Shown piece after piece: positions 34,269-50,467 of a DNA stretch of 64,000 bases. Source of the stretch: an uncultured Bacteroidota bacterium (lineage in GTDB: Bacteria; Bacteroidota; Bacteroidia; Chitinophagales; LD1). The stretch lies in NCBI GenBank assembly GCA_903919075.1, contig CAIXGR010000022.1:1-64000 (forward strand), read 5' to 3'. Position 1 is the stretch's first letter. The number at the start of each line of letters is the position of its first letter. Under the pieces are notes generated by a model that was not told the DNA's origin, ran no database searches, and was given only the letters and a program-made list of their open reading frames with translations. The position numbers and the translations under genes were made by a program.

Positions 34269-34311
34269 TATCGTTAATTTAATTCCGTTTAAGGAATCGG
34301 GTAATAGTAAT

Positions 34312-34653
34312 TTACTTTACGCTGTTCAAAAACGAGATTGCTGAGGCTTCATCAGGCTGGGTTTTAAATACACCATCCAGTTTAGTTATTAACAATAGTT
34401 TTCTCATCTGCTCAGGAACATTGCAAAGTGCAAGTTCTCCACCCGCATTGCGTGTTTTTGATACTGCAGTTAACAACATGCCTAATCCGGTACTGTTGAT
34501 GAATTTCATTTCGCCCAGATTGAAAAGAACCTTTTTGTTGCCGGCTTCAATACTGTTTTTAATCATTTCCATTACCGGTGCGTTGGCTTGTTCGCCTAAT
34601 AAATTTCCTTCCAGTGCAATAATAAGCACTCCATCTTTGGTTTCGTTTTTCAT
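34312..34653 (-). CDS. STAS-domain protein (anti-sigma factor antagonist type)
   Basis: Single STAS domain of 113 residues. The conserved phosphorylatable serine is Ser54 in FINSTGLGML. Such proteins act as partner-switching antagonists of anti-sigma kinases, but no RsbW-like kinase or PP2C phosphatase is present here. It sits between the fur-type gene (15 bases away) and purA (43 bases), a setting that suggests co-transcription but not function. Confidence 0.88.
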   Translation of the reverse strand: MKNETKDGVLIIALEGNLLGEQANAPVMEMIKNSIEAGNKKVLFNLGEMKFINSTGLGMLLTAVSKTRNAGGELALCNVPEQMRKLLLITKLDGVFKTQPDEASAISFLNSVK

Positions 34654-34668
34654 GCGTTAAGTGTTTAG

Positions 34669-35196
34669 TTATATGGTTTGTTTTTCTGTTTTCTTTTTAT
34701 TTATCGGTTCTTCTTTGCGTTGCGCTTCTGCCATCTCGCGTTTTTTCTGGCAACTTCCGCAAACGCCGTACATATTTAATGAATGATGCGTAATTTTAAA
34801 ATTTAATAATTCACCCATCATACTTTTAATTTGCTGTATCCGCGGATCGCAAAATTCAACTACTTTTTTACAATCTACGCAAATAATATGGTCATGTTGT
34901 TTATAACCATAGCTTTTTTCGTATTGTGCAAGGTTCTTGCCAAACTGGTGTTTCTTAATCAGGTCGCAGGAAATAAGCAGTTCGAGTGTGTTATAGACAG
35001 TAGCCCGGCTTATGTTGAAATTTTTTTTCAGAATGTCGTTATACAACGACTCGGCTTCGAAGTGGTCGGTACGGGAATATATCTCATCAAGTATCAAAAA
35101 ACGCTCGTTGGTTTTACGCAGGGCTTTTTTCTCAAGGTAAGCCGAGAAGATGTTTTTAGCCTCTTCAATCTGTTCTTTTTTGTCTGGCGAAATCAC
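34669..35196 (-). CDS. Fur-family transcriptional regulator
   Basis: Metal- or peroxide-responsive repressor. The winged helix lies at about residues 25-90 with the recognition helix in NISRATVYNTLELL. The dimerisation domain carries His-Asp-His metal ligands (KQHDHIICVDC) and two CxxC pairs (CVDC and CGSC) for structural zinc. The C-terminus is a Lys/Glu-rich tail. The 175 residues are slightly long. Whether it senses iron, peroxide or zinc is not decided by the sequence. It heads the run STAS-purA-pabB. Confidence 0.9.
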   Translation of the reverse strand: MISPDKKEQIEEAKNIFSAYLEKKALRKTNERFLILDEIYSRTDHFEAESLYNDILKKNFNISRATVYNTLELLISCDLIKKHQFGKNLAQYEKSYGYKQHDHIICVDCKKVVEFCDPRIQQIKSMMGELLNFKITHHSLNMYGVCGSCQKKREMAEAQRKEEPINKKKTEKQTI

Positions 35197-35261
35197 GTGC
35201 TAATTTACAAAGTTTGAAGTATAATTAGAAAAAATCGGAAACACTGTAAACTACGTGTCTT

Positions 35262-35630
35262 TTACCTCTTTCTCATAATGCGTTTACGGTGCTGTTCTCC
35301 CCATGTTTTCATTTCCATTAAAACCTTGTCAAGCGATTTTCCGTATGGGGTTAACTCATATTCAACGGTTACCGGCTTGGTATCGTAAACCGTTCGGGTT
35401 ATCAGTTCGTTATCTTCCAGTTCTTTCAATTCCTTCGAAAGCATCCGTGCGGTAATTTTGGGTATATCACGCTCCATAGCCTTAAAGCGCTTTTTCCCAA
35501 ACATCAGCGAACCTAAAATAGGGAGTTTCCATTTGCCGCTTAAAATGTCGAGCGTATCCCTAACAGGTATTAAAAACTGAGTGCATTCTGTAGGTCGTGC
35601 TTCGGCTGTTGCTTGTTTTTGACTTGCCAT
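35262..35630 (-). CDS. HxlR-type winged-helix regulator
   Basis: Small regulator of 122 residues with the HxlR hallmark region LSGKWKLPILGSLMFGKKRFKAMERDIPKITARMLSKELKELE (shown in halves: GKWKLPILGSL and ITARMLSKELKELE). Members respond to redox or reactive electrophiles, often through a conserved Cys; here one Cys is present near the N-terminus (ECTQFL). It is divergent from a DoxX gene across a 105-base region filled with three related half-palindromic sites, a typical self-regulating arrangement. Confidence 0.9.
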   Translation of the reverse strand: MASQKQATAEARPTECTQFLIPVRDTLDILSGKWKLPILGSLMFGKKRFKAMERDIPKITARMLSKELKELEDNELITRTVYDTKPVTVEYELTPYGKSLDKVLMEMKTWGEQHRKRIMRKR

Positions 35631-35645
35631 ATTATTTGTAGTTGG

Positions 35646-35694
35646 TATACCAGAGTATATTAGTATACTTTGGTATAGTAGTTACTAAAGTATA
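35646..35694. promoter_or_regulatory. Putative HxlR operator: three phased inverted/direct sites
   Basis: TATACCAGAGTATA at 35646-35659 and TATACTTTGGTATA at 35664-35677 form an inverted repeat with one mismatch around a four-base centre. A third, weaker copy (TTACTAAAGTATA) ends at 35694. Centres are about 18 bases apart. The sites lie between the HxlR and DoxX starts, just upstream of a promoter-like CATTTTTG at 35707. Confidence 0.65.
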
Positions 35695-35735
35695 GCAAAC
35701 ATAGCGCATTTTTGCATTACAAAAAATAAATAGAT

Positions 35736-36092
35736 ATGAACTTAGCACTTTGGATTATGCAAGGATTATTGGGCCTGTTTATTGTAGCAGGTATTATGAA
35801 AACTTTACAACAGGTAGATAAACTTTCGGTAAGGATGGCGTGGGTAAAACGTTATTCCGTGGGAATGGTAAGATTTATTGGTATTACAGAACTGCTAGGA
35901 GGTATAGGAGTAATAGTGCCTTGGGCAACAGGTATAATGCCAATACTAACCCCCCTTGCTGCCGTTGGCCTTGCAATTATCCAAGTTGCAGCAGCCTTTG
36001 ATCATTTAAGGAATAATGAAAGCAAGCTGGTTCCAATCAATATTGTATTTCTTCTACTTGCAGTTGCGGTTGCTTACGGAAGATGGGTGTAA
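35736..36092 (+). CDS. DoxX-family membrane protein
   Basis: Integral membrane protein of 118 residues with four helices, DoxX/DoxD-like family. The functional residues are not known in detail; members are linked to quinone or thiol chemistry. The helices are at about 7-24, 45-64, 72-90 and 99-116. The gene is divergent from the HxlR regulator, which probably controls it. Induction by reactive electrophiles or oxidants is an inference from this common pairing. Confidence 0.85.
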   Translation: MNLALWIMQGLLGLFIVAGIMKTLQQVDKLSVRMAWVKRYSVGMVRFIGITELLGGIGVIVPWATGIMPILTPLAAVGLAIIQVAAAFDHLRNNESKLVPINIVFLLLAVAVAYGRWV

Positions 36093-36122
36093 GCGAATTT
36101 TCGCTAATTAGAAAATTTCGCT
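36092..36122. promoter_or_regulatory. Putative operator of the XRE regulator (AGCGAA half-sites)
   Basis: AGCGAATTTTCGCT (36092-36105) is an inverted repeat with six-base arms, and a third TTCGCT is at 36117-36122. They sit directly upstream of a -7 box at 36127 and would cover the -33 region. The first copy overlaps the DoxX stop codon. Confidence 0.5.
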
Positions 36123-36126
36123 TTTG

Positions 36127-36134
36127 TATATTTG
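36127..36134 (+). promoter_or_regulatory. Putative -7 promoter element of the XRE regulator
   Basis: TATATTTG matches TAnnTTTG, 16 bases before the ATG at 36151. Confidence 0.45.
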
Positions 36135-36150
36135 CATTTTATAACCTAAG

Positions 36151-37638
36151 ATGCTAACCTCTTCTGAAGAAAACATACGCATCATATTTGGCCTTAAATT
36201 GAAAAAATTAAGGGCCGATAAAAAACTGTCGTTGCATCAGCTTTCGTCAAAATCGGGTGTGTCAGTTTCATACCTTAATGAAATTGAGAACGGCAAAAAA
36301 TATCCGAAGCCAGATAAGATAAACGGACTTGCCAGTGCGCTGGATACTACTTACGATCAGCTGGTCTCTCTCAAAATAAATAAAAACCTTACACCGGTTG
36401 TACAAATTCTTAATTTACGAATTGTCAACGATTTTCTTTTCGAAACCTTTGGTGTAGATAAGAATCTTTTAATGGGCATGATGGCTGCTGCCCCTATCCA
36501 GCTATCAGCGCTGATAAATTCTGTATTCGAAGTTGCGCGCAACTATAATTTGCAGGAAGAGCACTTCTATTTCAGTTGCCTTCGCTCCTACCAGGAAATG
36601 AACGAAAATTATTTTGATGACATTGAATTGGCAGTAGAAAATTTTAGTAATGAAGTAGGTATCAAAGGCCAGCAGCATCTTACCGCAGCAAGTTATGAGC
36701 AGATATTAAAAGAAAAATTTAAATACCGGGTTAGCAAAACCGATTTTTCTGATTACCCAAAACTTCGCGGTTTTCGTTCGGCATTTATCAAGGGCAAAGA
36801 ACCTGTACTGCTATACAATAGCCGCCTTACCGAACAACAAAAAATTTTCCTTTTCGGAAAGGAACTTGGCTTTGCTTATATGAAAATTGAAAAGCGGCCT
36901 TTAACTACTTCATGGCTTAAGGTTGAATCGTTTGATCATGTGTTGAATAATTTTAAGGCATCGTATTTTGCACAGGCATTGCATATTAATAACGAGCGGC
37001 TTGTTAAAGACATAGAATCACTATTTCAGAATAAAACCTGGAAACCCGTTGCGCTGGCCGAGTTGCTTGAAAAGTATAATTCCTCACCCGAAATGCTTTT
37101 ACAGCGTATAGCTAATTTGCTGCCCAAATATTTTGGATTCAATGATCTTTACTTTATTCGTTATTCAAGCAAAGAACCGGCCAAGCATTTAAAAGAAATA
37201 TCGAAGGAACTGCACCTTAGTAAAAACCAACTGGACCTTGAATACATGATAAATGAACAAAATTACCGGCGCTGGATAACCAAATCGTTGGTACACTACC
37301 TGGATAATAAACGTTCGACAACCGATGCCCGGAAAACATTTATTGATGCTATAATCAGCAAAAATAACGCCGGTGATGAATATTTAACTATTTCCATACT
37401 TAGGCCTATGCCCGAGTTAAATAACAATGCAAATTCTGTAAGCATTGGTTTTGTTTTAACCGACCATGTAAAAAAGAAAATCGCATTTTTAAACGATCCA
37501 TCTTTAAGAATAGAAAAGATAGGTGTTGTTTCTGAATTTCAATTTGAAACGCCATTTGCCATGCGAAAGATGCGGGATGAAGAAGCCCGGCAGGCCGATT
37601 ATGAAAAGTTGGCTTGGAAAGAAAAACACCGGAACTAA
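36151..37638 (+). CDS. XRE-family regulator with RamB/ScfR-like C-terminal region
   Basis: DNA-binding protein of 495 residues. A Cro/CI helix-turn-helix occupies residues 10-65 (LSLHQLSSKSGVSVSYLNEIE). The middle part (about 190-300) resembles the IrrE-like domain of acetate/glyoxylate regulators RamB and ScfR. The zinc site HExxH is absent; the matching place reads GKELGFAYM, as also happens in those families, so no protease activity is expected. The C-terminal 150 residues may bind a metabolite. It probably controls its own promoter through AGCGAA sites. No glyoxylate-cycle genes are in the window. Confidence 0.78.
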   Translation: MLTSSEENIRIIFGLKLKKLRADKKLSLHQLSSKSGVSVSYLNEIENGKKYPKPDKINGLASALDTTYDQLVSLKINKNLTPVVQILNLRIVNDFLFETFGVDKNLLMGMMAAAPIQLSALINSVFEVARNYNLQEEHFYFSCLRSYQEMNENYFDDIELAVENFSNEVGIKGQQHLTAASYEQILKEKFKYRVSKTDFSDYPKLRGFRSAFIKGKEPVLLYNSRLTEQQKIFLFGKELGFAYMKIEKRPLTTSWLKVESFDHVLNNFKASYFAQALHINNERLVKDIESLFQNKTWKPVALAELLEKYNSSPEMLLQRIANLLPKYFGFNDLYFIRYSSKEPAKHLKEISKELHLSKNQLDLEYMINEQNYRRWITKSLVHYLDNKRSTTDARKTFIDAIISKNNAGDEYLTISILRPMPELNNNANSVSIGFVLTDHVKKKIAFLNDPSLRIEKIGVVSEFQFETPFAMRKMRDEEARQADYEKLAWKEKHRN

Positions 37639-37748
37639 AAAATGTAACAATCCTTACTTTGTTATAGTCCAATTTTGCGGTTTTCCGCAAACTCATTTAC
37701 CCTATAAACGTAAAATCTTTTTCTAAATTCGTAGCTGGGGGTTCTAAT

Positions 37749-39497
37749 ATGAAATTTTCTTTCGAGCAACAATTGAGTTTTGCGTTTGCCGCATTCTTTG
37801 CAGGCACAGTTTTTATGGGCTACACCGCCTATCGAAATAATCTGGCATTTAATGAAAGTAATCACAGGATACGGCATACCGAAGAAGTACTGCGCGAAAC
37901 CGACCAAGTAGTTTCGCTTAGCAAAGACATAAGCGGCGAGCGGGCATATCTTAGCACCAGTAACCGCCAATTTTTGGAACCACTCAACCAGGCTTCAAAA
38001 TCTGTTTTTGTACATATTGCCAGTTTAAAAAACCTAACTACCGATAACCCTGCGCAGCAACAACGTATTGATTCCCTTCAATTTTATGTAAGCAAGCGCC
38101 TTGATTTTGTTTCGCAATGTATTCAGTTAATAGACCAGAAAAAAACAGACTCTGCCGCAACGCTTATTGCCACCCAGCAAAGCAGATTCTGGATGAATAA
38201 AATACGGAAAAGCACTGCCGATATACAGCAGGAAGAAGAAGTTCTGTTTCAGAAGAGAAAAGCAATTAATGATCAAAGCATAAACGCTTTTAGTGGTACA
38301 ATTTTAACCTTGTTTTCGGGTTTGTTGTTTTTATTAATCGTTACTTATATTACTATCAGGTATAATTTAACTAAGCGAATAAAATTGGAAGAAGAGCTAA
38401 AACGAACCAACAGGTTTGTAAATGCTATTCTGGAGAATATACCCGACATGATATTTGTAAAAGATGCCGAAGACCTTCGCTTTATAAGGTTTAATAAAGC
38501 AGGCGAAAAACTAATCGGGCAGCCAAGAGAAAATTTAATAGGCAAAAATGATTATGATTTTTTCCCAAAATCTCAGGCCGATTCGTTTACCGCTAAAGAT
38601 AGAGAGGTTATAAAAGGTGGAAAGTTAATTGATGTAGCCGAAGAACCAATTCAATCTCCACAAGGGGAACGTTGGCTGCACACTAAAAAAATACCGATTT
38701 ATGATGAATCGGGTAAAGCACAGTACTTACTAGGAATTTCCGAGGATATTACAGAAAATAGAATACGCTTGGCGGAAATTAGAAAATTGAACGATGAGTT
38801 AGAGAAAACGGTGGAGCAACTAACTCAAGCCAATAAAGAAATGGAGGCTTTTACTTATTCCGTTTCGCATGACCTTCGCGCTCCGCTTAGAATAATTGAT
38901 GGCTTTAGTGAAATTTTACTTAAAGATTATCGTGATAAACTAGATAATGATGGTGTTGAAACAATTAAGGTAATAACCAGTAATGCCCGGCACATGAGCA
39001 AGCTTATTGAAGATTTGTTAAACCTATCGCGTTTAGGAAGAGCAGAGCTTGTGAAAAAGCAAAACGATATGAATAGACTTGTAAATGATGTAGTTGAGGC
39101 TATCCGCATTGTTGATAATAAAATAAACGTGCCTATTAAGGTGCATAATTTAAGTGGGGCATTCTGTGATTATAACCTTACCCGCCAGGTTTGGATGAAT
39201 TTGATTTCGAACGCGCTTAAATATTCAAGAAACGTAGATAAGCCCGAAGTTGAAATTGGAAGCATTGATAAAGATGGAGTTAGTGTTTATTATGTAAAAG
39301 ATAATGGCGTAGGCTTTGATATGAAATATGCACATAAATTGTTTGGTGTTTTTCAGCGTTTACATAAAGCCACGGAGTTTGAAGGAACCGGTGTTGGTTT
39401 GGCGCTTGTACATCGTATTATTACTAAACATGGAGGTAAAATTTGGGTAGAGGCTAAACTGAGCGAAGGGGCTACTTTTTATTTTACCCTTGGATGA
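37749..39497 (+). CDS. Membrane sensor histidine kinase with CHASE3 and PAS domains
   Basis: Sensor half of a two-component pair. Membrane helices lie at about 8-25 and 178-200 and enclose an extracytoplasmic CHASE3 domain (RAYLSTSNRQFLEPL). A PAS domain follows at about 219-330, then HisKA with phosphoacceptor His374 in SVSHDLRAPLR, then HATPase_c with NALKYS and GVGFDMK boxes. The 582 residues are complete. The response regulator gene begins 48 bases downstream on the same strand and is the likely partner. The signal cannot be told; the nearby kdp genes suggest potassium or osmotic status. Confidence 0.9.
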   Translation: MKFSFEQQLSFAFAAFFAGTVFMGYTAYRNNLAFNESNHRIRHTEEVLRETDQVVSLSKDISGERAYLSTSNRQFLEPLNQASKSVFVHIASLKNLTTDNPAQQQRIDSLQFYVSKRLDFVSQCIQLIDQKKTDSAATLIATQQSRFWMNKIRKSTADIQQEEEVLFQKRKAINDQSINAFSGTILTLFSGLLFLLIVTYITIRYNLTKRIKLEEELKRTNRFVNAILENIPDMIFVKDAEDLRFIRFNKAGEKLIGQPRENLIGKNDYDFFPKSQADSFTAKDREVIKGGKLIDVAEEPIQSPQGERWLHTKKIPIYDESGKAQYLLGISEDITENRIRLAEIRKLNDELEKTVEQLTQANKEMEAFTYSVSHDLRAPLRIIDGFSEILLKDYRDKLDNDGVETIKVITSNARHMSKLIEDLLNLSRLGRAELVKKQNDMNRLVNDVVEAIRIVDNKINVPIKVHNLSGAFCDYNLTRQVWMNLISNALKYSRNVDKPEVEIGSIDKDGVSVYYVKDNGVGFDMKYAHKLFGVFQRLHKATEFEGTGVGLALVHRIITKHGGKIWVEAKLSEGATFYFTLG

Positions 39498-39545
39498 TAT
39501 TACTTCTTATAAGCCATTAGCATAAAATTTACAGATATTTGCCGC

Positions 39546-40874
39546 ATGAAAGCAACCATTTTGGTTATAGATGATGAGGCAAAATTGCGCGAGTTACTTT
39601 CGCGTATTATTTCGCTAGAAGGTTTCAATGTGCTGGAAGCCGATACTGCTAAAGCCGGATTAAAAATACTGGAGAGGAATGAAGTGCATGTAGTATTAAG
39701 TGATGTAAAACTACCTGACGCTAATGGTATTGAACTAAGTTGCGAAATTAAAAGCAAGTATCCCTGCACAGAGATAATTGTGCTTACTGCTTTTGGCACT
39801 ATTGCCGATGGCGTGAAAGCAATTAAAGCAGGAGCTTTTGATTACCTGACTAAAGGTGACGATAACGAAAGAATAATTCCGCTGCTGAATAAAGCTGTTG
39901 AAAAAGCCATTCTCCAATTCCGTATTCAGCAATTGGAGAAAAAGGTTTCTGAAAAATATAGTTTCGAAAATATTCTGGGCACATCAAAAGCCATTATGCA
40001 ATCAAAAGAACTGGCAGCTAAAGTTGCAATGACTGACTCCACTGTACTTTTGTTAGGCGAAACCGGAACCGGTAAAGAGGTATTTGCCCAATCTATTCAC
40101 CAGGCCGGCAAAAGAAGGCTGAAACCTTTTATTGCTGTTAACTGCAGTGCTTTTGCCAAAGATATATTGGAAAGCGAACTCTTCGGGCATAAGGCTGGGG
40201 CTTTTACGGGTGCCATAAAAGATAAACGTGGTTTGCTTGAAGAAGCACATGAGGGAACTATATTTTTAGATGAGATTGGCGAAATGAATATTGAGCTACA
40301 GGCAAAACTATTGCGTGCGCTCGAAACCAGTGAATTTTATAAAGTGGGAGATTCGAAGCCCACCAAAGTGAATGTACGTTTTATTGCTGCATCAAACCGG
40401 AATCTTGAAGCGGAAAGCGAAAAGGGAACATTCCGTTCTGACCTGTTTTATCGTCTTTCGGTATTTACTATTCATTTGCCATCGCTTAATGAACGAATGG
40501 AAGACATAGAAATATTGGCTGAGCATTTTATTAAAATATTTGCCGATAAAATGAATAAGCCCCAACCTAAAATGTCGACCGCGTTTTTAGATGCTCTTCA
40601 ACATCATGCCTGGAAAGGGAATACCCGGGAGTTGAAAAATGTTACCGAGCGGGCAGTAATACTTGCCGAAAATGTTTTGCGACCTGAAGATTTACCCTTC
40701 AATTTTTCAGATGCAACTTCTTCGCAATTTGTTTTTGACATTGCAGAAGTTGAAAAGCGACATATTCAAAAGGTATTGAAACACACCAATGGTAATAAAA
40801 CCGAAGCCGCCAAATTGATGAACATCGGCCTTACTACCTTATACCGTAAGCTGCAGGATTATAAAATCGAATAA
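39546..40874 (+). CDS. Sigma-54-dependent response regulator (NtrC/AtoC type)
   Basis: Transcription activator. The receiver domain has the acid pair Asp9-Asp10 and phosphoacceptor Asp53 in LSDVKLPD. The AAA+ domain has Walker A GETGTGKE near residue 171 and the sigma-54 contact loop GAFTGA at 218-223, both intact. A Fis-type helix-turn-helix closes the protein (KTEAAKLMNIGLTTLYRKL). The 442 residues are complete. It follows its kinase gene and lies 135 bases before a sigma-54-like promoter of the kdp cluster, so it is the best candidate for kdp activator, in place of the missing KdpE. Confidence 0.93.
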   Translation: MKATILVIDDEAKLRELLSRIISLEGFNVLEADTAKAGLKILERNEVHVVLSDVKLPDANGIELSCEIKSKYPCTEIIVLTAFGTIADGVKAIKAGAFDYLTKGDDNERIIPLLNKAVEKAILQFRIQQLEKKVSEKYSFENILGTSKAIMQSKELAAKVAMTDSTVLLLGETGTGKEVFAQSIHQAGKRRLKPFIAVNCSAFAKDILESELFGHKAGAFTGAIKDKRGLLEEAHEGTIFLDEIGEMNIELQAKLLRALETSEFYKVGDSKPTKVNVRFIAASNRNLEAESEKGTFRSDLFYRLSVFTIHLPSLNERMEDIEILAEHFIKIFADKMNKPQPKMSTAFLDALQHHAWKGNTRELKNVTERAVILAENVLRPEDLPFNFSDATSSQFVFDIAEVEKRHIQKVLKHTNGNKTEAAKLMNIGLTTLYRKLQDYKIE

Positions 40875-40966
40875 CCTTTCATTTTGGAAAAGCATTTATC
40901 ATTTCGGTAAGGTATCCCCAACTTTTGCCAATCTTATCCAATGCTCAAGATTCTCCATTTTCGTTA

Positions 40967-40996
40967 TTAATCAATGGGTTACAAAATATTGATTAA
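40967..40996. promoter_or_regulatory. Dyad upstream of the kdp sigma-54 promoter (possible activator site)
   Basis: TTAATCAAT (40967-40975) and ATTGATTAA (40988-40996) are perfect nine-base inverted arms, 12 bases apart and two helical turns between centres. The dyad is centred about 55 bases before the predicted transcription start. It is AT-rich with no T tract, so it is not a terminator. Confidence 0.5.
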
Positions 40997-41009
40997 ATGC
41001 TTTAGTAGC

Positions 41010-41024
41010 TGGCACCTATTTTGA
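41010..41024 (+). promoter_or_regulatory. Putative sigma-54 (RpoN) promoter of the kdp cluster
   Basis: TGGCAC, five bases (CTATT), then TTGA: the -24/-12 elements with exact spacing and one deviation from TTGC. The predicted start is near 41036, just before the first gene of the cluster. The adjacent gene encodes a sigma-54 activator. Confidence 0.65.
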
Positions 41025-41041
41025 AATGGGTGTGCCAAAAT

Positions 41042-41410
41042 ATGTATTCTATGATTTTGCTATATGATGCAGTATCGGTAATTCAAAGCGAGTTTCCATA
41101 CCTTTCTTATCAAACTAGAAATAGCTCAAATAATAAGAACTTGTTTCATGTGGTTAACAATTTGGCCAATTATACCAAAAATCAACTTCTTGAAAATAAT
41201 GAAGCAGAATGCGAGCACTGTTTTAAGGTAGCTTATGAGATATGGGAACAGGGCAGCAATATTTCTAAAATGGCTATTGAGAACATTTTTGTTTACAGCC
41301 TTAGTCGTTTATTGGAAAGGTCTTTCTCGGTTTCAAATGAAGCACGGGAACAATTTCTTAAATTTTTCAGAAAACAATATGAGGTGCAAATTGGGGGTAA
41401 ATACCCTTAA
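41042..41410 (+). CDS. Small cytoplasmic protein at the head of the kdp cluster (DUF7674-like)
   Basis: Protein of 122 residues without signal peptide or membrane segment, helical, with a Cys pair in ECEHCF near residue 57. It resembles small proteins of the DUF7674 kind, which often precede kdp genes in Bacteroidota; the function is unknown. A TTG at 41021 in the same frame lies inside the -12 promoter element and cannot be the start. ATG 41042 leaves a leader of only about six bases and ATG 41051 about fifteen, so the latter is also possible. It is probably the first gene transcribed from the sigma-54 promoter, so a regulatory or accessory role in potassium uptake is inferred. Confidence 0.72.
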   Translation: MYSMILLYDAVSVIQSEFPYLSYQTRNSSNNKNLFHVVNNLANYTKNQLLENNEAECEHCFKVAYEIWEQGSNISKMAIENIFVYSLSRLLERSFSVSNEAREQFLKFFRKQYEVQIGGKYP

Positions 41411-41484
41411 TAAGCTGTTATGATAAAAGTCATATCAACAAACAGTGCCCAAGACAGATATTTGTAATAAATAAATAATAATTA

Positions 41485-41568
41485 ATGATAACCATAATAC
41501 TAATAACAAGCGGACTTTTGTGTTTCGCATTTTTCTTAAAACTGATTGACTGGTTCGAAAAAATTTAA
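41485..41568 (+). CDS. 27-residue single-pass membrane peptide
   Basis: Short ORF with a hydrophobic helix (MITIILITSGLLCFAFF) followed by LKLIDWFEKI. It ends 3 bases before kdpF, in the same direction. The size and topology match single-pass KDP accessory peptides, but it lacks the PExF ending of KdpF. It may be a second small subunit or a leader peptide. The call rests on position, hydrophobic pattern and close spacing; no homologue is recognised. Confidence 0.55.
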   Translation: MITIILITSGLLCFAFFLKLIDWFEKI

Positions 41569-41571
41569 TCT

Positions 41572-41649
41572 ATGATAGCTCTGTTCATCGTATCGATATT
41601 TGTTTTTGCTTATTTGGTTTATGTATTAATTAAACCTGAAAAATTCTGA
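41572..41649 (+). CDS. kdpF: K+-transporting ATPase subunit F
   Basis: Peptide of 25 residues (MIALFIVSIFVFAYLVYVL, then IKPEKF). One membrane helix ending in the PExF motif is the KdpF signature; the subunit stabilises the KdpFABC complex in the inner membrane. It ends 4 bases before kdpA. It is too short for most gene finders. Confidence 0.85.
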   Translation: MIALFIVSIFVFAYLVYVLIKPEKF

Positions 41650-41653
41650 AAAG

Positions 41654-43381
41654 ATGTTTACTTATACTGAAATACTTGGCATATTATTGATGTTTTTCGG
41701 AACTGTTGCATTGGCTATTCCGCTCGGAAAGTACATTGCCAAAGTTTACGGTGGCGAAAAAACGCTTCTTGATGCAGTTTTTAATCCGCTTGAAAAATTA
41801 TTTTTCAAGCTAAGCGGAATTGACGCTAGTAAGGAAATGAATTGGAAGCAAAGCATGGTAGCCTTACTGGTTATTAATGCCGTATGGTTCATTTACGCAT
41901 TTGTAATTTTAATTTATCAGGGTTCTCTCCCACTAAATCCCGACCACAATCCATCTATGACAGCTGACCTTGCGTTTAATACCGCCATCAGTTTTGTAGT
42001 GAATTGCAATTTGCAGGACTACAGTGGTGAGACAGGAGCCAGTTATTTTACGCAAATTTTTGTATTCACATTCTTGCAGTTTGTTTCAGCTGCCACCGGT
42101 ATGGCAGCATTAGCCGTGTTGTTTAATGCCTTAAAAGAACGCACTACTGATAAGCTCGGAAACTTCTATAACTACTTTATGAAATCGCTTACAAGGGTTT
42201 TACTTCCACTAAGTATTGTAGTAGCCGTTATCTTTCTTTTCAATGGTATGCCAATGACCTTTAAAGCAAAAGATACTGTTGTAGCCATGCAAGGCGATAC
42301 CTCACAGGTATCTCGAGGCCCAGTGGCAGCCATGATACCTATTAAACATCTTGGTACCAATGGCGGTGGCTTTTTCGGGGCCAACTCTGCACATCCATTT
42401 GAAAATCCAAACTATCTAACCAATGTAGTTGAGATGATTGCCCAATTGCTGATTTCGATGGCTATGATATTTGCTTTAGGTTATTACCTGAAAAGGAAAA
42501 AATTGGCCTGGGTGATTTTTGGTGTAATGACAGTCGGATTTCTCATGCTGGCAATTCCTAATATAATGATGGAGGTTAAGGGCAACCCCGCTATTGCAAA
42601 AATGGGCATCAATATGTCGGCCGGTGCAACTGAGGGCAAAGAAATTCGTTTTGGCGCTGCTGCTTCAGGCTATTGGAGCATTCTTACTACCGTTATCTCT
42701 ACCGGCTCAGTTAATGCTATGCATGATAGTACTATGCCTTTATCCGGTATGAACGAAATGTTAGCTATGATGGTGAATGCCTTTTATGGCGGCGTTGGTG
42801 CCGGTATGCTCAACTTTTTCATCTTTATCATCATCGCAGTTTTTATTTCGGGTTTAATGGTAGGCCGCACCCCTGAGTTTCTTGGTAAAAAGATTGAGGC
42901 CCGGGAAATGAAAATTGCGGTGCTGGTCTCTCTCCTATCGCCATTATTAATATTGGGATTTACTGCTTTAGCAAGTTACTTCGCTGCGCATGATACTAAT
43001 ATGGGTTGGTGGTTCGGTGGCAAAGCCAGCACATGGCTTAATAATCCCGGATATCATGGTTTTTCGGAAATGCTTTATCAGTTCACATCAAGCAACGCCA
43101 ATAATGGAAGCGGCTTTGAAGGATTGAATGACAATAATCCATTTTGGAATATAACTGCCGGTGTAGTAATGATACTGGGCCGCTTTATACCAATCATAGG
43201 TCCGGTAGCAATTGCTGGCTTGCTTGCTGGTAAAAAATATATTCCTGAAAGTGCGGGTACATTAAAAACCGATACGCTCACTTTCGGATTGATGACACTG
43301 GCAGTAATTCTAATTATAACAGCACTATTATATTTTCCTGCATTGGCATTGGGGCCTTTGGCGGAGTATTTCAGTATGTAA
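41654..43381 (+). CDS. kdpA: K+-transporting ATPase subunit A (channel-like)
   Basis: Potassium-binding, channel-like subunit of the high-affinity KdpFABC pump in the inner membrane. Four pore-loop regions with Gly/Asn-rich selectivity motifs are visible: FVVNCNLQDYSGE, LGTNGGGFFGANSAHPFENP, STGSVNAMHD and SSNANNGSGFEGL. About ten membrane helices cover 575 residues, the normal length. The gene starts 4 bases after kdpF. Confidence 0.97.
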   Translation: MFTYTEILGILLMFFGTVALAIPLGKYIAKVYGGEKTLLDAVFNPLEKLFFKLSGIDASKEMNWKQSMVALLVINAVWFIYAFVILIYQGSLPLNPDHNPSMTADLAFNTAISFVVNCNLQDYSGETGASYFTQIFVFTFLQFVSAATGMAALAVLFNALKERTTDKLGNFYNYFMKSLTRVLLPLSIVVAVIFLFNGMPMTFKAKDTVVAMQGDTSQVSRGPVAAMIPIKHLGTNGGGFFGANSAHPFENPNYLTNVVEMIAQLLISMAMIFALGYYLKRKKLAWVIFGVMTVGFLMLAIPNIMMEVKGNPAIAKMGINMSAGATEGKEIRFGAAASGYWSILTTVISTGSVNAMHDSTMPLSGMNEMLAMMVNAFYGGVGAGMLNFFIFIIIAVFISGLMVGRTPEFLGKKIEAREMKIAVLVSLLSPLLILGFTALASYFAAHDTNMGWWFGGKASTWLNNPGYHGFSEMLYQFTSSNANNGSGFEGLNDNNPFWNITAGVVMILGRFIPIIGPVAIAGLLAGKKYIPESAGTLKTDTLTFGLMTLAVILIITALLYFPALALGPLAEYFSM

Positions 43382-43405
43382 AAGCAGTATTAAAATTTAA
43401 TTAAA

Positions 43406-45457
43406 ATGGGCACAGAAAGAAAAGCAGCATTATTTGAAAAAGAACTTGTTGGAGAAGCCATTATACAATCGTTCGTAAAACTTAATCCAAAAATTCTTTT
43501 CCGTAATCCTGTAATGTTTACTGTTGAAATTGGAACCGCAATTATGTTGGCGGTAACTATTTATTCAGCTATTAATCATGATAAATCGCAAGGTTCATTT
43601 GGCTATAATTTGGCGGTGTTCCTCGTACTACTTTTTACAGTGCTATTCGCCAACTTTGCTGAAGCCATAGCTGAGGCTCGGGGAAAAGCACAGGCTGATT
43701 CATTACGCAAAACACGACAAGACACAAAGGCGAAATTGGTAGTGGAAGATAGGCGTGGATTTGAAGTAAAAACCACTTCCACCGTTTCCTCGCAGTTAAA
43801 AAAAGGTGATATTTTTTTATGTGTAGCTGGGGATATTATACCCACCGACGGCGAAATTATTGAAGGTCTTGCTACAATTGATGAGAGTGCTATTACCGGA
43901 GAAAGTGCACCGGTAATTCGCGAATCGGGTGGGGATAAAAGCAGCGTTACCGGTGGCACCAAAGTTTTAAGCGATAGGGTAAAAGTTTTGGTTACTACGC
44001 AACCGGGAGAAAGCTTTTTGGATAAAATGATAGCTCTGGTAGAAAGTGCAACAAGACAAAAAACCCCCAATGAAATTGCCTTAACTATTTTATTGGCCGG
44101 GTTTACACTTGTGTTTGTTATTGTATGTGTAACACTTCAACCCTTTGCGGTTTATGCTAAAACGCCCATTACTATAGCTGCCTTCATTTCACTTTTTGTT
44201 TGTTTAATTCCTACAACTATTGGTGGGTTACTTTCAGCAATTGGTATAGCAGGAATGAATAGGGCTTTACGTGCCAATGTAATTACCAAATCGGGTAAGG
44301 CAGTGGAAACAGCGGGTGACTTAGATACCTTGTTATTAGATAAAACAGGAACTATTACAATTGGTAACCGGAAAGCCACCAATTTTTATGAAGCGCCGGG
44401 AGTGGATAAAAATACTTTTATTGAGTTATGTACCTTAAGCTCGCTGGCTGATGAAACACCTGAGGGAAAATCGATTGTTGAATTGGCAGGTTACGAAAAG
44501 GTAAAATCTCTTTCAATCGAAGGTTCAGTTTTAATAAAATTTACTGCTGAAACGCGCACATCTGGTGTTGACCTAAAAGACGGAAGACGCATTCGTAAAG
44601 GAGCATTGGATGCTATTGCTAGAATTTCTGAGAATGCGGGTAATCCGTTTCCTCAGGAAACTGCTGCGAAGGTGAAAGAAATATCATCAAATGGAGGTAC
44701 GCCTCTAGTAGTTTCATTGAATGAAAAAGTTCTTGGGGTTATAGAGCTTCAGGATATTATTAAAACTGGCATTAAAGAACGCTTTGAGCGTTTGCGTAAA
44801 ATGGGGGTAAAAACTGTAATGGTTACCGGTGATAATCCGCTTACTGCAAAATATATTGCCGAAGCTGCTGGTGTGGATGATTTTATTGCAGAGGCCAAGC
44901 CTGAGGATAAAATGAATTACATACGCAAGGAACAGGCCAGCGGTAAGCTAGTAGCGATGATGGGCGATGGCACTAACGATGCACCGGCGCTGGCCCAAGC
45001 TGATGTGGGTGTTGCCATGAACAGCGGAACACAGGCTGCTAAAGAGGCTGGCAATATGGTTGACTTGGATAATGATCCTACCAAGTTGATTGAAATAGTG
45101 GAAATAGGAAAGCAATTATTAATGACTCGTGGAACATTAACCACCTTTTCAATTGCTAATGACGTAGCCAAATATTTTGCAATTGTACCTGCACTTTTTA
45201 TTACATCAATACCAGCTTTACAAGGATTGAACATTATGAAATTGCATTCACCGGAAAGCGCTATTATGTCGGCTATAATATTTAATGCATTGATAATACC
45301 GACTTTAATTCCTTTGGCATTGCGCGGAGTTGCTTACAAGCCTATTGGTGCAAGTGCTTTGTTGAGAAGAAATTTATTCATTTATGGTCTTGGTGGTGTT
45401 GTGGTACCTTTTATAGGTATTAAACTACTTGATCTATTTATTTCATTATTAGTTTAA
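43406..45457 (+). CDS. kdpB: K+-transporting ATPase subunit B (P-type ATPase)
   Basis: Catalytic P-type ATPase subunit of KdpFABC. The phosphorylated aspartate is Asp312 in [10 protein letters not shown]. The actuator motif ITGESAPV lies near residue 161, and the hinge motif [19 protein letters not shown] near 518. The inhibitory-phosphorylation motif TGES is intact. The 683 residues are complete. The gene starts 24 bases after kdpA and is followed after 13 bases by kdpC. Confidence 0.97.
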
Positions 45458-45470
45458 ATATATTTCGAAA

Positions 45471-46037
45471 ATGAAAACTCATATTCTTCCGGCAATAAAA
45501 CTTACGATTATATGTATCCTGTTCTTTTCAGGCATATACACGCTTGCAGTTTGGGGTATAGCTTATATAGTAGCACCTAATCATGGCGATGGACAAACTG
45601 TTCGGGTAAATGGCAAGGTAGTAGGTTATGAACTGATAGGCCAAAAATTCAATCAGGATAAATATTTCTGGTCACGTCCATCGTCGGTAGATTATAACGC
45701 AGCCGGTTCCGGTGGTAGTAATAAAGGGCCATCTAATCCTGATTATTTAAAACAGGTTCAATTAGCTATTGATACATTTTTGTTGCGCAATCCATCAGTT
45801 AAAAAGGAAGATGTTCCGGTTGAAATGGTTACTGCTTCGGGTAGCGGATTAGACCCGGATATCTCGCCAGAGGCTGCGGCTGTGCAAATTCCACGCATTG
45901 CAAAGGCTACGGGTTTAAGAGAAGATAATTTGAGGAAATTAGTCGCACTGCATACTGAGAAAGCGTTGTTGGGATTGTTCGGGCCATCAAAAGTAAACGT
46001 ACTAAAACTTAATATATCATTAAACAATTTAAAGTAA
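45471..46037 (+). CDS. kdpC: K+-transporting ATPase subunit C
   Basis: Small subunit that raises the affinity of KdpFABC for potassium and ATP. One N-terminal membrane helix at about 8-32 is followed by a periplasmic/cytoplasmic-side domain with the family motifs GQKFNQDKYFWSRPS and ASGSGLDPDISPEAA and the LNxxL-type C-terminus. The 188 residues are normal. The porin gene follows after 18 bases. Confidence 0.96.
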   Translation: MKTHILPAIKLTIICILFFSGIYTLAVWGIAYIVAPNHGDGQTVRVNGKVVGYELIGQKFNQDKYFWSRPSSVDYNAAGSGGSNKGPSNPDYLKQVQLAIDTFLLRNPSVKKEDVPVEMVTASGSGLDPDISPEAAAVQIPRIAKATGLREDNLRKLVALHTEKALLGLFGPSKVNVLKLNISLNNLK

Positions 46038-46055
46038 CACCTAAAACCAATTTTT

Positions 46056-47555
46056 ATGAAAAGTAGATTTTTACTCGGCGTTATGATACTGGTTGCAAGT
46101 TCTTCGGCTTTTGCCGAAACAGACAGTACTGCTGTTAAAAATGCAACTGCTAGTGCTGTGCCCACACCGCATACCACCTCGGTGGCTAATGAAAAGGTGA
46201 GCGAAATGGGACATAATTTTGTAGATGCCTTTTTAGATAAAAAGAAACATCAAAAGCAGCGCGATACTACTGCTACAGCCGAGCCATTTTCGCAATATGA
46301 CCTTACGTGGATGAATGGAAATGACCGCAGGAAAAGCGGTTCGCCTTTTGCCGGTAAGTATTTTACACCTATAGTAATGGTAGATGTGAATTATACTGCT
46401 TCAACAGCCCATCCTAAAGATAATACGGTAGTCGGTTCAACTGCATTGGCCCGTAATAATGAGGTGGAACTTTCATTGGCCTCTTTAGGTGGTGAATTCA
46501 ATTATGCCAATGTTCGGGCAAAAATTCAGTTGCAGTTTGGCACCCGTGCAACTGTAGTTCCTCGTAACGATGCTAGCTGGAACCGCGGCGGTTACGACCT
46601 CAGGTCTGCATATCAATATTTTTGCGAGGCTTATGGTGGTTATCATTTTAACGCCATGCATGGCATTAATGTTGATGCAGGTATCTTCATGTCGTACGTT
46701 GGCTTGTTCTCTTATTACAATGCCGAAAACTGGACGTATCAACCATCGTTTACATCAGATAATACACCGTGGTTTTTTAATGGTGTGCGTATTCAAATGT
46801 TTCCGAGTATGAAATTGAAACAGGAAATATGGATCATTAACGGCTGGCAAAGTTATGGCAAGTTTAATAATATGCCGGGTTTAGGCTCATCAACTTCATG
46901 GAGCCCGAAGGAAAACATACGGGTGGTATCCAATAACTATTTTGGAACTGATGTTGGCAATAATACTAAGTGTTTCCGTTTTCATAGCGACAATAGTTTT
47001 CTGTTGAGGTATTACAACAAACCGGATGGTAAATTTAGCAAAGCAGCTTTTTCTCTAACTGGAAATTTGGGCTTTCAGGAAGGCGGAGGGTTCGGTGGAT
47101 TTGGAGCCGGACTAGCGAATGGCGCCCAATCCAACTTTTTATGCTGGATGGCTTATAACAACTTATGGTTTGGAAAAGATCATTTTTCATGGTGCATAGG
47201 TGGGGGCATGATGCACAACCCCGGCCGCTACTTAGTGTTATACCCTGGCGGCGATGCTGACCCCAATATTAATCCTGCAACAGGAACAACAATTGGCACC
47301 CATCCATTTTCAGCCAATCCGGGTGATAAATTTGATGCTTGGGATATGTCTACTAGTATAAGTTGGATGCCTAACGATTTTATTACGTTCACGGCCCAAA
47401 TTGTACATCGTGAATCAAACGTGCCCTATTTTGCAGGTCCCGGTGGTGTAACTTCACCTGATGGTTATAACGGAACGCCTATTACAGGTGGATGGACGCC
47501 TGACCTTCAAAAGCAGGAAACACGCGTAATATTAGCTATGGTTGTGCGCTTATAA
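46056..47555 (+). CDS. Outer-membrane beta-barrel porin (BBP2/OmpL-like)
   Basis: Outer-membrane protein of 499 residues with a signal peptide (residues 1-20, ending SAFAE), a Thr/Lys-rich spacer, then a long barrel of alternating strands ending in VILAMVVRL, the aromatic/hydrophobic C-terminal strand pattern. It resembles the putative porin-2 (BBP2, OmpL-like) group. It lies 18 bases after kdpC and 75 before kdpD on the same strand, so it may be made together with the pump to let potassium through the outer membrane. The ion preference is unknown. Confidence 0.82.
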   Translation: MKSRFLLGVMILVASSSAFAETDSTAVKNATASAVPTPHTTSVANEKVSEMGHNFVDAFLDKKKHQKQRDTTATAEPFSQYDLTWMNGNDRRKSGSPFAGKYFTPIVMVDVNYTASTAHPKDNTVVGSTALARNNEVELSLASLGGEFNYANVRAKIQLQFGTRATVVPRNDASWNRGGYDLRSAYQYFCEAYGGYHFNAMHGINVDAGIFMSYVGLFSYYNAENWTYQPSFTSDNTPWFFNGVRIQMFPSMKLKQEIWIINGWQSYGKFNNMPGLGSSTSWSPKENIRVVSNNYFGTDVGNNTKCFRFHSDNSFLLRYYNKPDGKFSKAAFSLTGNLGFQEGGGFGGFGAGLANGAQSNFLCWMAYNNLWFGKDHFSWCIGGGMMHNPGRYLVLYPGGDADPNINPATGTTIGTHPFSANPGDKFDAWDMSTSISWMPNDFITFTAQIVHRESNVPYFAGPGGVTSPDGYNGTPITGGWTPDLQKQETRVILAMVVRL

Positions 47556-47630
47556 TTGTAGATTTTTGTAAGATATTATTATATAAAAAATAGTTAATCT
47601 AACATAGCAGCAAAGCAGTTTCAAGGAAAG

Positions 47631-48755
47631 ATGGAGGAGTCAAATAAAAATGCTGAGAAGTTTTTAGAGTTAATCCGACAGAGCAAACGCGGCAAGTTTA
47701 AACTGTATATTGGCATGAGCGCCGGTGTGGGTAAAACATACCGGATGCTTCAAGAAACCCATGCCCTGCTTAAAAATGGTGTTAATGTTAAGATTGGGTT
47801 TATTGAAACCCATAACCGGGTAGAAACTCACGCCTTGCTCGAAGGACTGCCATCCATTCCTCGCCGAAAGATATTTTATAGAGGAAAGGAATTAGATGAG
47901 ATGGATGTTCAAGCGGTTATTAATGCACACCCTGAAATTGTAATAGTTGATGAACTAGCGCACACCAATGTGGAAGGTAGTAAAAATGAGAAGCGTTGGC
48001 AGGATGTTATTGAAATTTTGAATGCCGGTATTAATGTTATCAGCGCGGTGAACATACAGCATATTGAAAGCTTGAATGATGAGATAAAGGATATAACTGG
48101 AATTGAAATTAAAGAGCGCGTGCCTGATTCTGTACTTCGCTTAGCTGATGAAGTAGTTAATATTGACCTTACTGCCGATGAATTAATTGCAAGGTTGAAA
48201 GAAGGAAAGATATACGAAAAAAGCAAAGTGGAAACCGCTTTGAGAAACTTCTTTCAGTCAGATAAAATTCTTCAGTTACGGGAGTTGGCGCTCAAAGAAG
48301 TTGCCTCGCAAGTAGAAAGGAAAATAGAAACTGAATTGCCTAAAAACAGCGGATTACGTTCTGAGCGCTTTTTAGGATGCATTAGCAGCAACCACGAAAT
48401 AGCAAGGAAGATTATCCGCAAAACTGCGAGGTTAGCTTCCTATTATAACAGCACCTGGTATGTGCTTTATGTGCAAACGCCACAAGAGGATACGGATAAA
48501 ATTCCATTAGCTGCGCAGCGGCATCTGATTAACAATTTCAAGTTAGTAACCGAGCTGGGGGGCGAAATAATAAACCTAAAAGATGAAAGCATTGCCAATG
48601 CCATTGTAAAAGTAGCGGAAGAAAAATCTATTACGACCATTTGTATTGGCAAGCCGCATATGAGCATTTGGAAAATAATTATGAGTACAACTGTGTTTAA
48701 CCAGCTATTAAATAAGTTATCGGCATCAGATATTGATATTATCATACTATCGTAA
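47631..48755 (+). CDS. kdpD: KdpD sensor half: KdpD and USP domains only, no kinase
   Basis: Cytoplasmic N-terminal part of the potassium sensor KdpD. The KdpD domain (about 20-225) has Walker A GMSAGVGKTYRM and VDELAHTNVEGSKNEKRW. A universal-stress-protein-like domain covers about 245-374. It stops before the four membrane helices, GAF and kinase domains that full KdpD (about 890 residues) would have. The stop is natural: the next gene starts 10 bases later and carries separate HAMP/PAS and kinase domains. The split is expected for this group rather than damage. No kdpE is in the window. Confidence 0.92.
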   Translation: MEESNKNAEKFLELIRQSKRGKFKLYIGMSAGVGKTYRMLQETHALLKNGVNVKIGFIETHNRVETHALLEGLPSIPRRKIFYRGKELDEMDVQAVINAHPEIVIVDELAHTNVEGSKNEKRWQDVIEILNAGINVISAVNIQHIESLNDEIKDITGIEIKERVPDSVLRLADEVVNIDLTADELIARLKEGKIYEKSKVETALRNFFQSDKILQLRELALKEVASQVERKIETELPKNSGLRSERFLGCISSNHEIARKIIRKTARLASYYNSTWYVLYVQTPQEDTDKIPLAAQRHLINNFKLVTELGGEIINLKDESIANAIVKVAEEKSITTICIGKPHMSIWKIIMSTTVFNQLLNKLSASDIDIIILS

Positions 48756-48765
48756 ATAATATAAT

Positions 48766-50448
48766 ATGAAGATTAAAACTAAAATACGTTTAGGCCTTAT
48801 CTTTTTGCTATCCATAATTATTACGCTGGCAGCAACGGGTAGCCTTTACGTTAACCGTCTTGCAGATATTTCTTCTGATATTTCAAAGGCCAACTATCAA
48901 AGCCTTGAATACGCAAAAAATATGATACAAGCATTGGATGAAGGTGATAATGATGTATCGGTAAAAAAGTTTGAAGATAATCTTAAGGCTCAGGAAAATA
49001 ATATTACTGAAGTTGGCGAAAAAAATGCAACAAAGGAAATGCGCGATATATTTGAGTTATACAAATCGGGTAAGCATGATGATAAAACCCAATCGCTATT
49101 ACGATTGAAAATATTGACTGTTCAGGACCTTAACATGCAGGCAATAGTGAAAAAAAATCAGTCGGTAACTCAAACTACAAAAAGAGTGTTCGCGTATATC
49201 ACCATTTTAGGTACACTGTGTTTTCTACTCAGTTTTACTTTTGTTATCAATTTTCCCGGTATGATAGCCAATCCGATAGCCGAACTTACTGCTGGTATAA
49301 AAGAAATTGCTAATAGAAATTATCAGTCGAGGCTAAACTTTAAAGCTAATGATGAATTTGGTGAAGTAGCAGGCGCCTTTAACGAAATGGCAAGTAAGTT
49401 AGATGATTATGAAAATAGCAACCTGAGCCGATTGATGTTTGAAAAAAAGCGGATTGAAGCTATTATCAATAACATGAAGGACGCAATAATAGGTTTGGAC
49501 GAAAAGAACAATGTGTTATTTGCTAATTCAGTAGCGTTGCAATTGTTGGGCCTGAACGAAAAGGATTTATTGAGCAAATATGCACCTGATGTGGCATTGA
49601 ACAATGATTTATTTCGCAACTTACTTGTGAAAGAGGAAAGAGAAAAGTTATTAAAAATTTATGCTGATAATAAGGAGAGCTACTTTACAAAAGAAGTGCT
49701 TGAAATTATAACCGGCGGGCAAAAAATTGGTGAGGTGATGGTTTTGCGCAACATTACCCGCTTTCAGGAATTGGATTTGGCTAAAACAAATTTCATTGCC
49801 ACAATTTCGCATGAACTAAAAACGCCCATATCTTCTATTAAAATGAGTTTGAAGTTATTGGATGATGAGCGTGTGGGAAAAGTAAATGAGGAACAGAAGA
49901 AACTGATTGATAATATAAAAGGCGATAGCCAGCGCTTATTAAAGATAACTACAGAATTGCTGGACATGGCACAGGTTGAAAGCGGCCATATTCATTTAAG
50001 TATTCAGCCCGTTGCGCCCGCGCAAATAGTAGAGCAAGCTGTAGGTGCAGCGCATTCTCTTGCTGAACAGAAAGGAATTACAATTGAAAAGCAATTAGCT
50101 GAAGGCCTTCCATCGATAAAAGTTGATGCGGAGAAAACATCATGGGTGTTACTTAATTTTCTGACCAATGCTATTCGTTATTCCCCCGAACGTTCAAAAA
50201 TAACCATCAATGTTGTACAGAAGGAAAACTCAATTATCTTTTCAGTAAAAGATATGGGACCTGGCATTGAAGAAAAATACTACGCGCGATTATTTGAAAA
50301 ATTCTTTCAGGTGCCAGGTTCTTCATCGGGCGGAAGTGGCATGGGTTTAGCCATCTCGAAAGAAATTATAGAAAAACAAGGGGGTAAGATAAGCGTAGAA
50401 AGTGAGCCGGGTAAAGGCAGCGCCTTCAGTTTTGAGTTAGCCGTGTAA
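48766..50448 (+). CDS. HAMP/PAS sensor histidine kinase paired with the KdpD half
   Basis: Membrane kinase of 560 residues: helices at about 8-28 and 141-165 with a short extracytoplasmic part, HAMP (NPIAELTAGIKEIANRN), PAS (about 228-330), HisKA with His349 in ISHELKTPIS, and HATPase_c with NFLTNAIRYSP, DMGPGIEEKY and GSGMGLAIS boxes. It starts 10 bases after the KdpD half and may supply the kinase activity that half lacks. No response regulator follows; the nearest is the NtrC-type protein upstream of kdp, which has its own kinase. Two kinases may therefore feed one regulator. Confidence 0.88.
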   Translation: MKIKTKIRLGLIFLLSIIITLAATGSLYVNRLADISSDISKANYQSLEYAKNMIQALDEGDNDVSVKKFEDNLKAQENNITEVGEKNATKEMRDIFELYKSGKHDDKTQSLLRLKILTVQDLNMQAIVKKNQSVTQTTKRVFAYITILGTLCFLLSFTFVINFPGMIANPIAELTAGIKEIANRNYQSRLNFKANDEFGEVAGAFNEMASKLDDYENSNLSRLMFEKKRIEAIINNMKDAIIGLDEKNNVLFANSVALQLLGLNEKDLLSKYAPDVALNNDLFRNLLVKEEREKLLKIYADNKESYFTKEVLEIITGGQKIGEVMVLRNITRFQELDLAKTNFIATISHELKTPISSIKMSLKLLDDERVGKVNEEQKKLIDNIKGDSQRLLKITTELLDMAQVESGHIHLSIQPVAPAQIVEQAVGAAHSLAEQKGITIEKQLAEGLPSIKVDAEKTSWVLLNFLTNAIRYSPERSKITINVVQKENSIIFSVKDMGPGIEEKYYARLFEKFFQVPGSSSGGSGMGLAISKEIIEKQGGKISVESEPGKGSAFSFELAV

Positions 50449-50467
50449 AAGAAAAAATAGTCATCCG

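Follow-up and report, generated by a model that had tools for sequence, protein, structure and literature searches.

A predicted sigma-54 control module with tandem palindromes and an IHF-like element upstream of kdp in Bacteroidota

In a 64,000-nucleotide stretch of DNA from an uncultured Bacteroidota bacterium (the window), the kdp potassium-pump genes are preceded by a sigma-54 activator gene, a −24/−12 promoter box and a perfect inverted repeat. This raises the question of how kdp is controlled here, and through which DNA element the adjacent activator would act. The first-pass annotation, made from the window alone, had taken the inverted repeat for a possible activator site lying unusually close to the promoter. 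Comparison with related loci points instead to a pair of tandem palindromes farther upstream, and the region 40873–41036 is considered, with a probability of about 0.8 on sequence grounds, to hold a sigma-54 control module of the classical kind for the operon DUF7674–kdpFABC–porin–KdpD.

The comparison set comprised about 100 Bacteroidota kdp loci and two kup loci. When genome contigs were scanned for the regulator, 80 loci were obtained, mostly from Bacteroidota and many with kdp adjoining the regulator gene. A second set, drawn separately, covered the DNA upstream of kdpA in 395 genomes belonging to the class. The motif models were partly learned from the loci displayed here; leave-one-out scoring was used for the bend element, and the second locus set for the palindrome and the promoter. 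Features of the window are listed in Table 1.

Table 1. Genes and DNA elements of the kdp region, in positions of the 64-kb window
Feature	Position	Strand	Basis or remark
Histidine kinase (CHASE3-PAS), probably partnering the NtrC-type regulator	37749..39497	+	Pfam; gene order HK-RR-(DUF)-kdp same in congeners L034, L041
Proposed kdp activator, an NtrC-type response regulator with receiver, AAA+ (GAFTGA) and Fis-type HTH domains	39546..40874	+	Pfam, alignment, orthologues
Candidate UAS, distal copy AACCTTTCATTTTGGAAAAGC	40873..40893	.	19.7 bits, best PWM position in the window; overlaps regulator stop codon
Candidate UAS, proximal copy CATTTATCATTTCGGTAAGGT	40893..40913	.	12.3 bits; centre 20 bp from distal copy, 108 bp upstream of −24 GG
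IHF/HU-like bend element (putative) TATTAATCAATGGGTTACAAA	40965..40985	+	Contains exact WATCAANNNNTTR (40969-40981); centre at −36 relative to −24 GG
Dyad TTAATCAAT-N12-ATTGATTAA	40967..40996	.	Perfect 9-bp arms; not conserved as dyad
−24/−12 promoter TGGCAC-CTATT-TTGA	41010..41024	+	Sequence, PWM; TGGYA-N6-TTGG-like boxes conserved in relatives
DUF7674 leader gene of operon	41051..41410	+	Pfam PF24722; start codon 41042 or 41051
Probable kdpF (MIALFIVSIFVFAYLVYVLIKPEKF)	41572..41649	+	Read directly from sequence
kdpA	41654..43381	+	Pfam KdpA, E 1e-225
kdpB	43406..45457	+	ORF; named from position and similarity beside kdpA in relatives
kdpC	45471..46037	+	ORF; named from position, conserved in relatives
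BBP2 beta-barrel porin	46056..47555	+	Pfam
KdpD sensor domain without kinase, 374 aa	47631..48755	+	Pfam PF02702 only
HAMP-PAS histidine kinase after split KdpD	48766..50448	+	Pfam

Gene cluster and predicted sigma-54 promoter

The gene ending at 40874 had been called a sigma-54 activator in the first-pass annotation, and Pfam bears this out: the product is an NtrC-type response regulator with receiver, Sigma54_activat and HTH_8 domains and a GAFTGA loop. Its orthologues, which are 54–77% identical, adjoin kdp in dozens of Bacteroidota. The genome encodes a single copy of rpoN (one Sigma54_DBD, E 1.6e-52), three strong sigma-54 activators and two HU/IHF-family proteins (Bac_DNA_binding). A full-length KdpD kinase with an OmpR-type KdpE was not found beside kdp; KdpD is a 374-aa fragment lacking the kinase, and no OmpR-type regulator was noticed among the ORFs of 34000–52000. 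KdpD is split (47631–50448) into a kinase-less sensor part and a separate HAMP-PAS kinase, and a CHASE3-PAS kinase adjoins the NtrC-type regulator.

Small leader genes similar to that for DUF7674 precede kdp in other families: in several families, the predicted sigma-54-driven kdp operon opens with a gene for DUF7674 or for a small protein resembling it on visual inspection (besides the window, loci L096, L123, L124, L126, L128, L131, L136 and L152). The DUF7674 protein could be a regulatory subunit or a sensor.

The −24/−12 box reported upstream of these genes, TGGCAC (41010–41015) and TTGA (41021–41024) separated by five bases, is present with the correct spacing. It ranks 7th among 127,968 positions of the window under a PWM learned from the kdp loci, this locus included, and has p = 0.008 within its own interval. 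Its −12 dinucleotide is GA, compared with GC in the consensus, and three congeners (L034, L066, L041) have TTTTCG in place of the −12 element, which is therefore weak in the genus. Most relatives carry TGGYA-N6-TTGG[CT]A or a near variant upstream of kdpA, and this recurrence, together with the single rpoN and the three strong activators, upholds the proposal of a sigma-54 promoter ahead of kdp with an adjacent NtrC-type activator. The transcript would be expected to start at about 41036.

Across most relatives, kdp promoters often have TTGG[CT]A in place of TTGCA as their −12 element, in two registers (GG-N10-GC and GG-N11-GC); this may be a Bacteroidota form of the sigma-54 box. The Bacteroidota housekeeping promoter TTTG-N17-23-TANNTTTG was also sought in the intergenic region, where the best match has two mismatches and none is convincing.

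Tandem palindromes and their spacing

The layout conserved among the loci is a tandem pair of palindromes, followed by an element resembling the IHF consensus and then by the −24/−12 box. The tandem palindrome precedes kdp in most loci; it has the consensus ACCCTTYCATTTTGRAAGGGT, its copies lie 19–23 bp apart, and the upstream copy is often the weaker of the two. It directly follows the stop codon of the regulator gene in many loci, and in 37 of 65 regions sampled downstream of the regulator without prior selection it exceeds the 95% level of shuffled sequences. The same palindrome and sigma-54 box were obtained from the second draw of kdpA upstream regions. The tandem dyads are thus conserved at a distance from the promoter such as is expected of enhancers (about 80–150 bp).

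Both copies in the window are degenerate (19.7 and 12.3 bits, compared with about 30 at the best loci), and the stronger copy is the distal one, unlike in most relatives. As a tandem, the pair scores 32.0 bits, whereas the next unrelated place in the 64 kb scores 6.7, and no other tandem pair was found genome-wide in a search with three mismatches. Single matches to the palindrome are not enriched in the genome (29, compared with 39 in the reversed control), and no further targets are therefore proposed in this genome.

The recognition helix of the regulator and the core of the palindrome change together, with an R to Q substitution in the helix accompanying a changed core. Regulators ending in TLYQK have the core CGGAWTCCG or a hybrid in all five loci where a site was found (L045, L057, L062, L065, L101), and those with TLYRK have a CATTTTG-type core in 60 loci; the simple palindrome finder left fifteen TLYRK loci and one TLYQK locus unclassified. 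Because helix and core co-vary, direct recognition of the palindrome by the regulator is supported at the level of sequence, although a single evolutionary event, inherited by all the Q loci, may account for the co-variation.

The distance from the centre of the strongest palindrome to the −24 G, measured with the promoter picked solely on its own score, falls into the classes 64, 75–76, 84–90, 94–98 and 104–110 bp. The Rayleigh R of this distribution is 0.69 (n = 81), a value reached by 0 of 5000 smoothed resamples, and it is 0.72 (n = 21) with one locus per genus, which was the only treatment of phylogenetic dependence. In the second locus set the classes are 84–90, 96–98 and 106–110. The proximal copy of the window lies at 108, a main class in relatives, and the stronger distal copy at 128. 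Distances from the palindrome to the bend element are also stepped (37, 47–50, 57–61 and 70–72), the value being 72 in the window and 71 and 72 in the congeners L034 and L066, respectively.

Similar arrangements were seen in other settings. In two Mucilaginibacter loci (L061:7329-7629, L100:7329-7579), the regulator gene is followed by a gene for a Kup-like transporter, identified by its translation, with the same palindromes and sigma-54 box and a palindrome-to-promoter distance of 75–76. In two further Mucilaginibacter loci (L081:7326-7700, L083:7332-7700), a homologue of the regulator lies just upstream of the gene for the BBP2 porin, accompanied by a sigma-54-like box; the DNA retrieved for these loci contains no kdpA. 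The clusters L034 and L066 each contain two different kdpA genes, with palindromes and promoter-like boxes by each.

IHF-like element, inverted repeat and rival readings

Between the palindromes and the promoter, the window contains an exact match to the IHF consensus WATCARNNNNTTR; the element (AATCAATGGGTTA) consists of the left arm of the dyad and part of its gap. This consensus, which was learned in E. coli and whose use by a Bacteroidota protein is assumed, is matched exactly in 20 of 82 palindrome–promoter intervals, compared with 1.3 ± 1.1 in shuffles, and in 18 of 78 intervals, compared with 2 of 77 and 0 of 78 flanking control segments. The IHF-like elements are for the most part centred at −26, −37/−38 or −48 relative to the −24 GG, and the exact consensus matches mostly at −26 or −36 to −38. 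A bend PWM, grown from the consensus matches and scored leave-one-out, is significant in 49 of the 82 intervals, in 38 of them at −24 to −28 or −35 to −39 and in most others at −47 to −49; about a third of the 82 intervals have no recognisable IHF-like site. Scores of at least 11 bits were obtained in 41 of 78 intervals, whereas only 1 of 78 segments upstream of the palindromes and 4 of 77 downstream of the promoter reached this level.

The element of the window scores 17.3 bits in leave-one-out (0 of 60 shuffles), and its position is 2 bp off the commonest one. In the congeners L034 (AATCAATAAGTTA) and L066 (AATCAATAGATTA) the element is placed at −38, and the three-way alignment with them has its longest invariant block in AATCAAT..TTA.

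The nine-base inverted repeat with a 12-base gap exists exactly as first described (arms at 40967–40975 and 40988–40996), and it occurs once in the 3.53-Mb genome. The idea that the NtrC-type regulator encoded next to it binds this repeat, unusually near the promoter, could draw on the perfect arms, on arm centres two helical turns apart and on the neighbouring activator gene, but it is very unlikely in view of the comparative data. Among the 82 palindrome–promoter intervals, no locus except the window has both arms with fewer than 5 mismatches in 18 positions; that is, every relative has at least 5. Perfect inverted repeats with arms of at least 9 and gaps of at most 20 are no commoner in the window than chance predicts: 7 were counted, and dinucleotide shuffling gave 8.7. 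When the 167-bp intergenic stretch was shuffled 2000 times, 69 of the shuffles (3.5%) contained such a repeat. The conserved activator-type palindromes are a different pair, at 40873–40913, which co-vary with the recognition helix and stand at classical enhancer distance, so that the candidate activator site shifts by about 80 bases and the unusual proximity falls away. The proposed footprinting by relatives gave a divided result: the −24/−12 box is conserved, although weaker at −12 in the congeners, and the dyad is not. A second, unrelated regulator or repressor overlapping the promoter-proximal region, with the IHF resemblance secondary, is also unlikely as the user of the dyad. It would account for the perfect symmetry and for the match to the IHF consensus on both strands, as expected of two inward-facing monomer sites; moreover, perfect 9-bp repeats are enriched in the palindrome–promoter intervals (9 of 82, compared with 1.3 in shuffles; among them L039, L051, L068, L076, L096, L140, L151 and L166), though their sequences and positions are unrelated. 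However, the congeners keep only the left arm and the gap, and this left half matches a position-specific IHF-like motif found across the class. Because the left half is a positionally conserved IHF-like element and the right arm is not shared by the congeners, the most fitting interpretation of the dyad is that of an IHF/HU-type bend site with an incidental second arm, the right arm being probably a chance or lineage-specific extension.

The palindromes at 40873–40913 could themselves be viewed as intrinsic terminators of the regulator gene rather than activator sites, given that many relatives have a strong copy just past the regulator stop codon, followed by a T run. This too is very unlikely. 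Where kdp is 2–4 kb away or divergent (L051, L070, L072, L074, L075, L077, L080, L082, L094, L099; Niastella and Hufsiella are included), the palindromes sit with kdp and not with the regulator gene, so they are not merely its terminator, and a function as terminator only was rejected. In addition, the copies are in tandem at 19–23 bp with a conserved CATTTTG loop, no T run follows those of the window, and neither helical phasing to the promoter nor co-variation with the recognition helix is expected of terminators. The strong copy could be both terminator and activator site in some species.

Proposed control of kdp and known systems

Sigma-54 enhancers assisted by an IHF bend are known from nifH, with NifA and IHF, and from glnA, of the NtrC type. 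The kdp module resembles them in its tandem activator palindromes (about 100–150 bp upstream), in the IHF-type site between enhancer and promoter, in the GG/GC-type −24/−12 box and in the AAA+ activator with GAFTGA. It differs from them in its target, a potassium pump, in the palindrome CCCTTYCATTTTGRAAGGG, in its occurrence in Bacteroidota and in a natural spacing series in helical steps across species. The architecture as such, a classical sigma-54 enhancer with an IHF bend, is known; what sets this case apart is its target, kdp, and its occurrence in Bacteroidota. With E. coli-type KdpD/KdpE, the cluster shares the transporter operon and an encoded KdpD sensor domain. Unlike in that system, KdpD is kinase-less, the histidine kinases are separate, an NtrC-type regulator would act via sigma-54, and no OmpR-type KdpE was noticed among the ORFs around the cluster.

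Surveys of sigma-54 regulons predict sigma-54 promoters across phyla (PMC12316311, Bacteroidota included; PMC3162934); neither of them ties kdp of Bacteroidota directly to sigma-54, since 'kdp' and 'potassium' are both absent from the text of the former, and the latter brings up kdp solely in connection with PTS-Ntr of E. coli. Searches confined to the open literature turned up no description of kdp under sigma-54, NtrC or KdpE in Bacteroidetes, and nothing relevant on IHF with sigma-54 in Bacteroidetes or on a Bacteroides IHF-like factor.

The elements, their conservation, the helical phasing and the regulator–site co-variation are properties of the sequences themselves; regulator binding, DNA bending, the potassium signal and the identity of the signalling histidine kinase are what we infer in the following mechanism. 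When potassium is short, a neighbouring kinase would phosphorylate the NtrC-type regulator, dimers of which would bind the tandem palindromes and form an AAA+ oligomer. An IHF/HU-family protein would bend the DNA at 40965–40985, the left half of the dyad, and the bend would allow the GAFTGA loops to reach sigma-54 RNA polymerase, closed at 41010–41024. The right arm of the dyad would be dispensable. The enhancer, bend site and promoter appear in this way to replace KdpE control of kdp.

For the window, the outcome is a correction of the putative activator site by about 80 bases. Across Bacteroidia, kdp (and sometimes kup) is likely to be under the control of sigma-54 together with a dedicated NtrC-type regulator that replaces KdpE, its enhancer and bend site having shifted in evolution only by full turns of the helix (about 64, 75, 85, 96 and 107 bp). 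To our knowledge, sigma-54 enhancer spacing has so far been explored mainly with engineered spacings in Proteobacteria. The spacing series in steps of one helical turn over dozens of species, together with the co-variation of regulator and motif, constitutes a natural experiment on sigma-54 enhancer action, and the series, if true, shows that contact between activator and polymerase is constrained by the helix face even with a bend protein. The proposed module also provides a concrete, testable rule for KdpE-free control of the emergency potassium pump in a large bacterial group, specifying which regulator, which binding motif and which promoter are involved.
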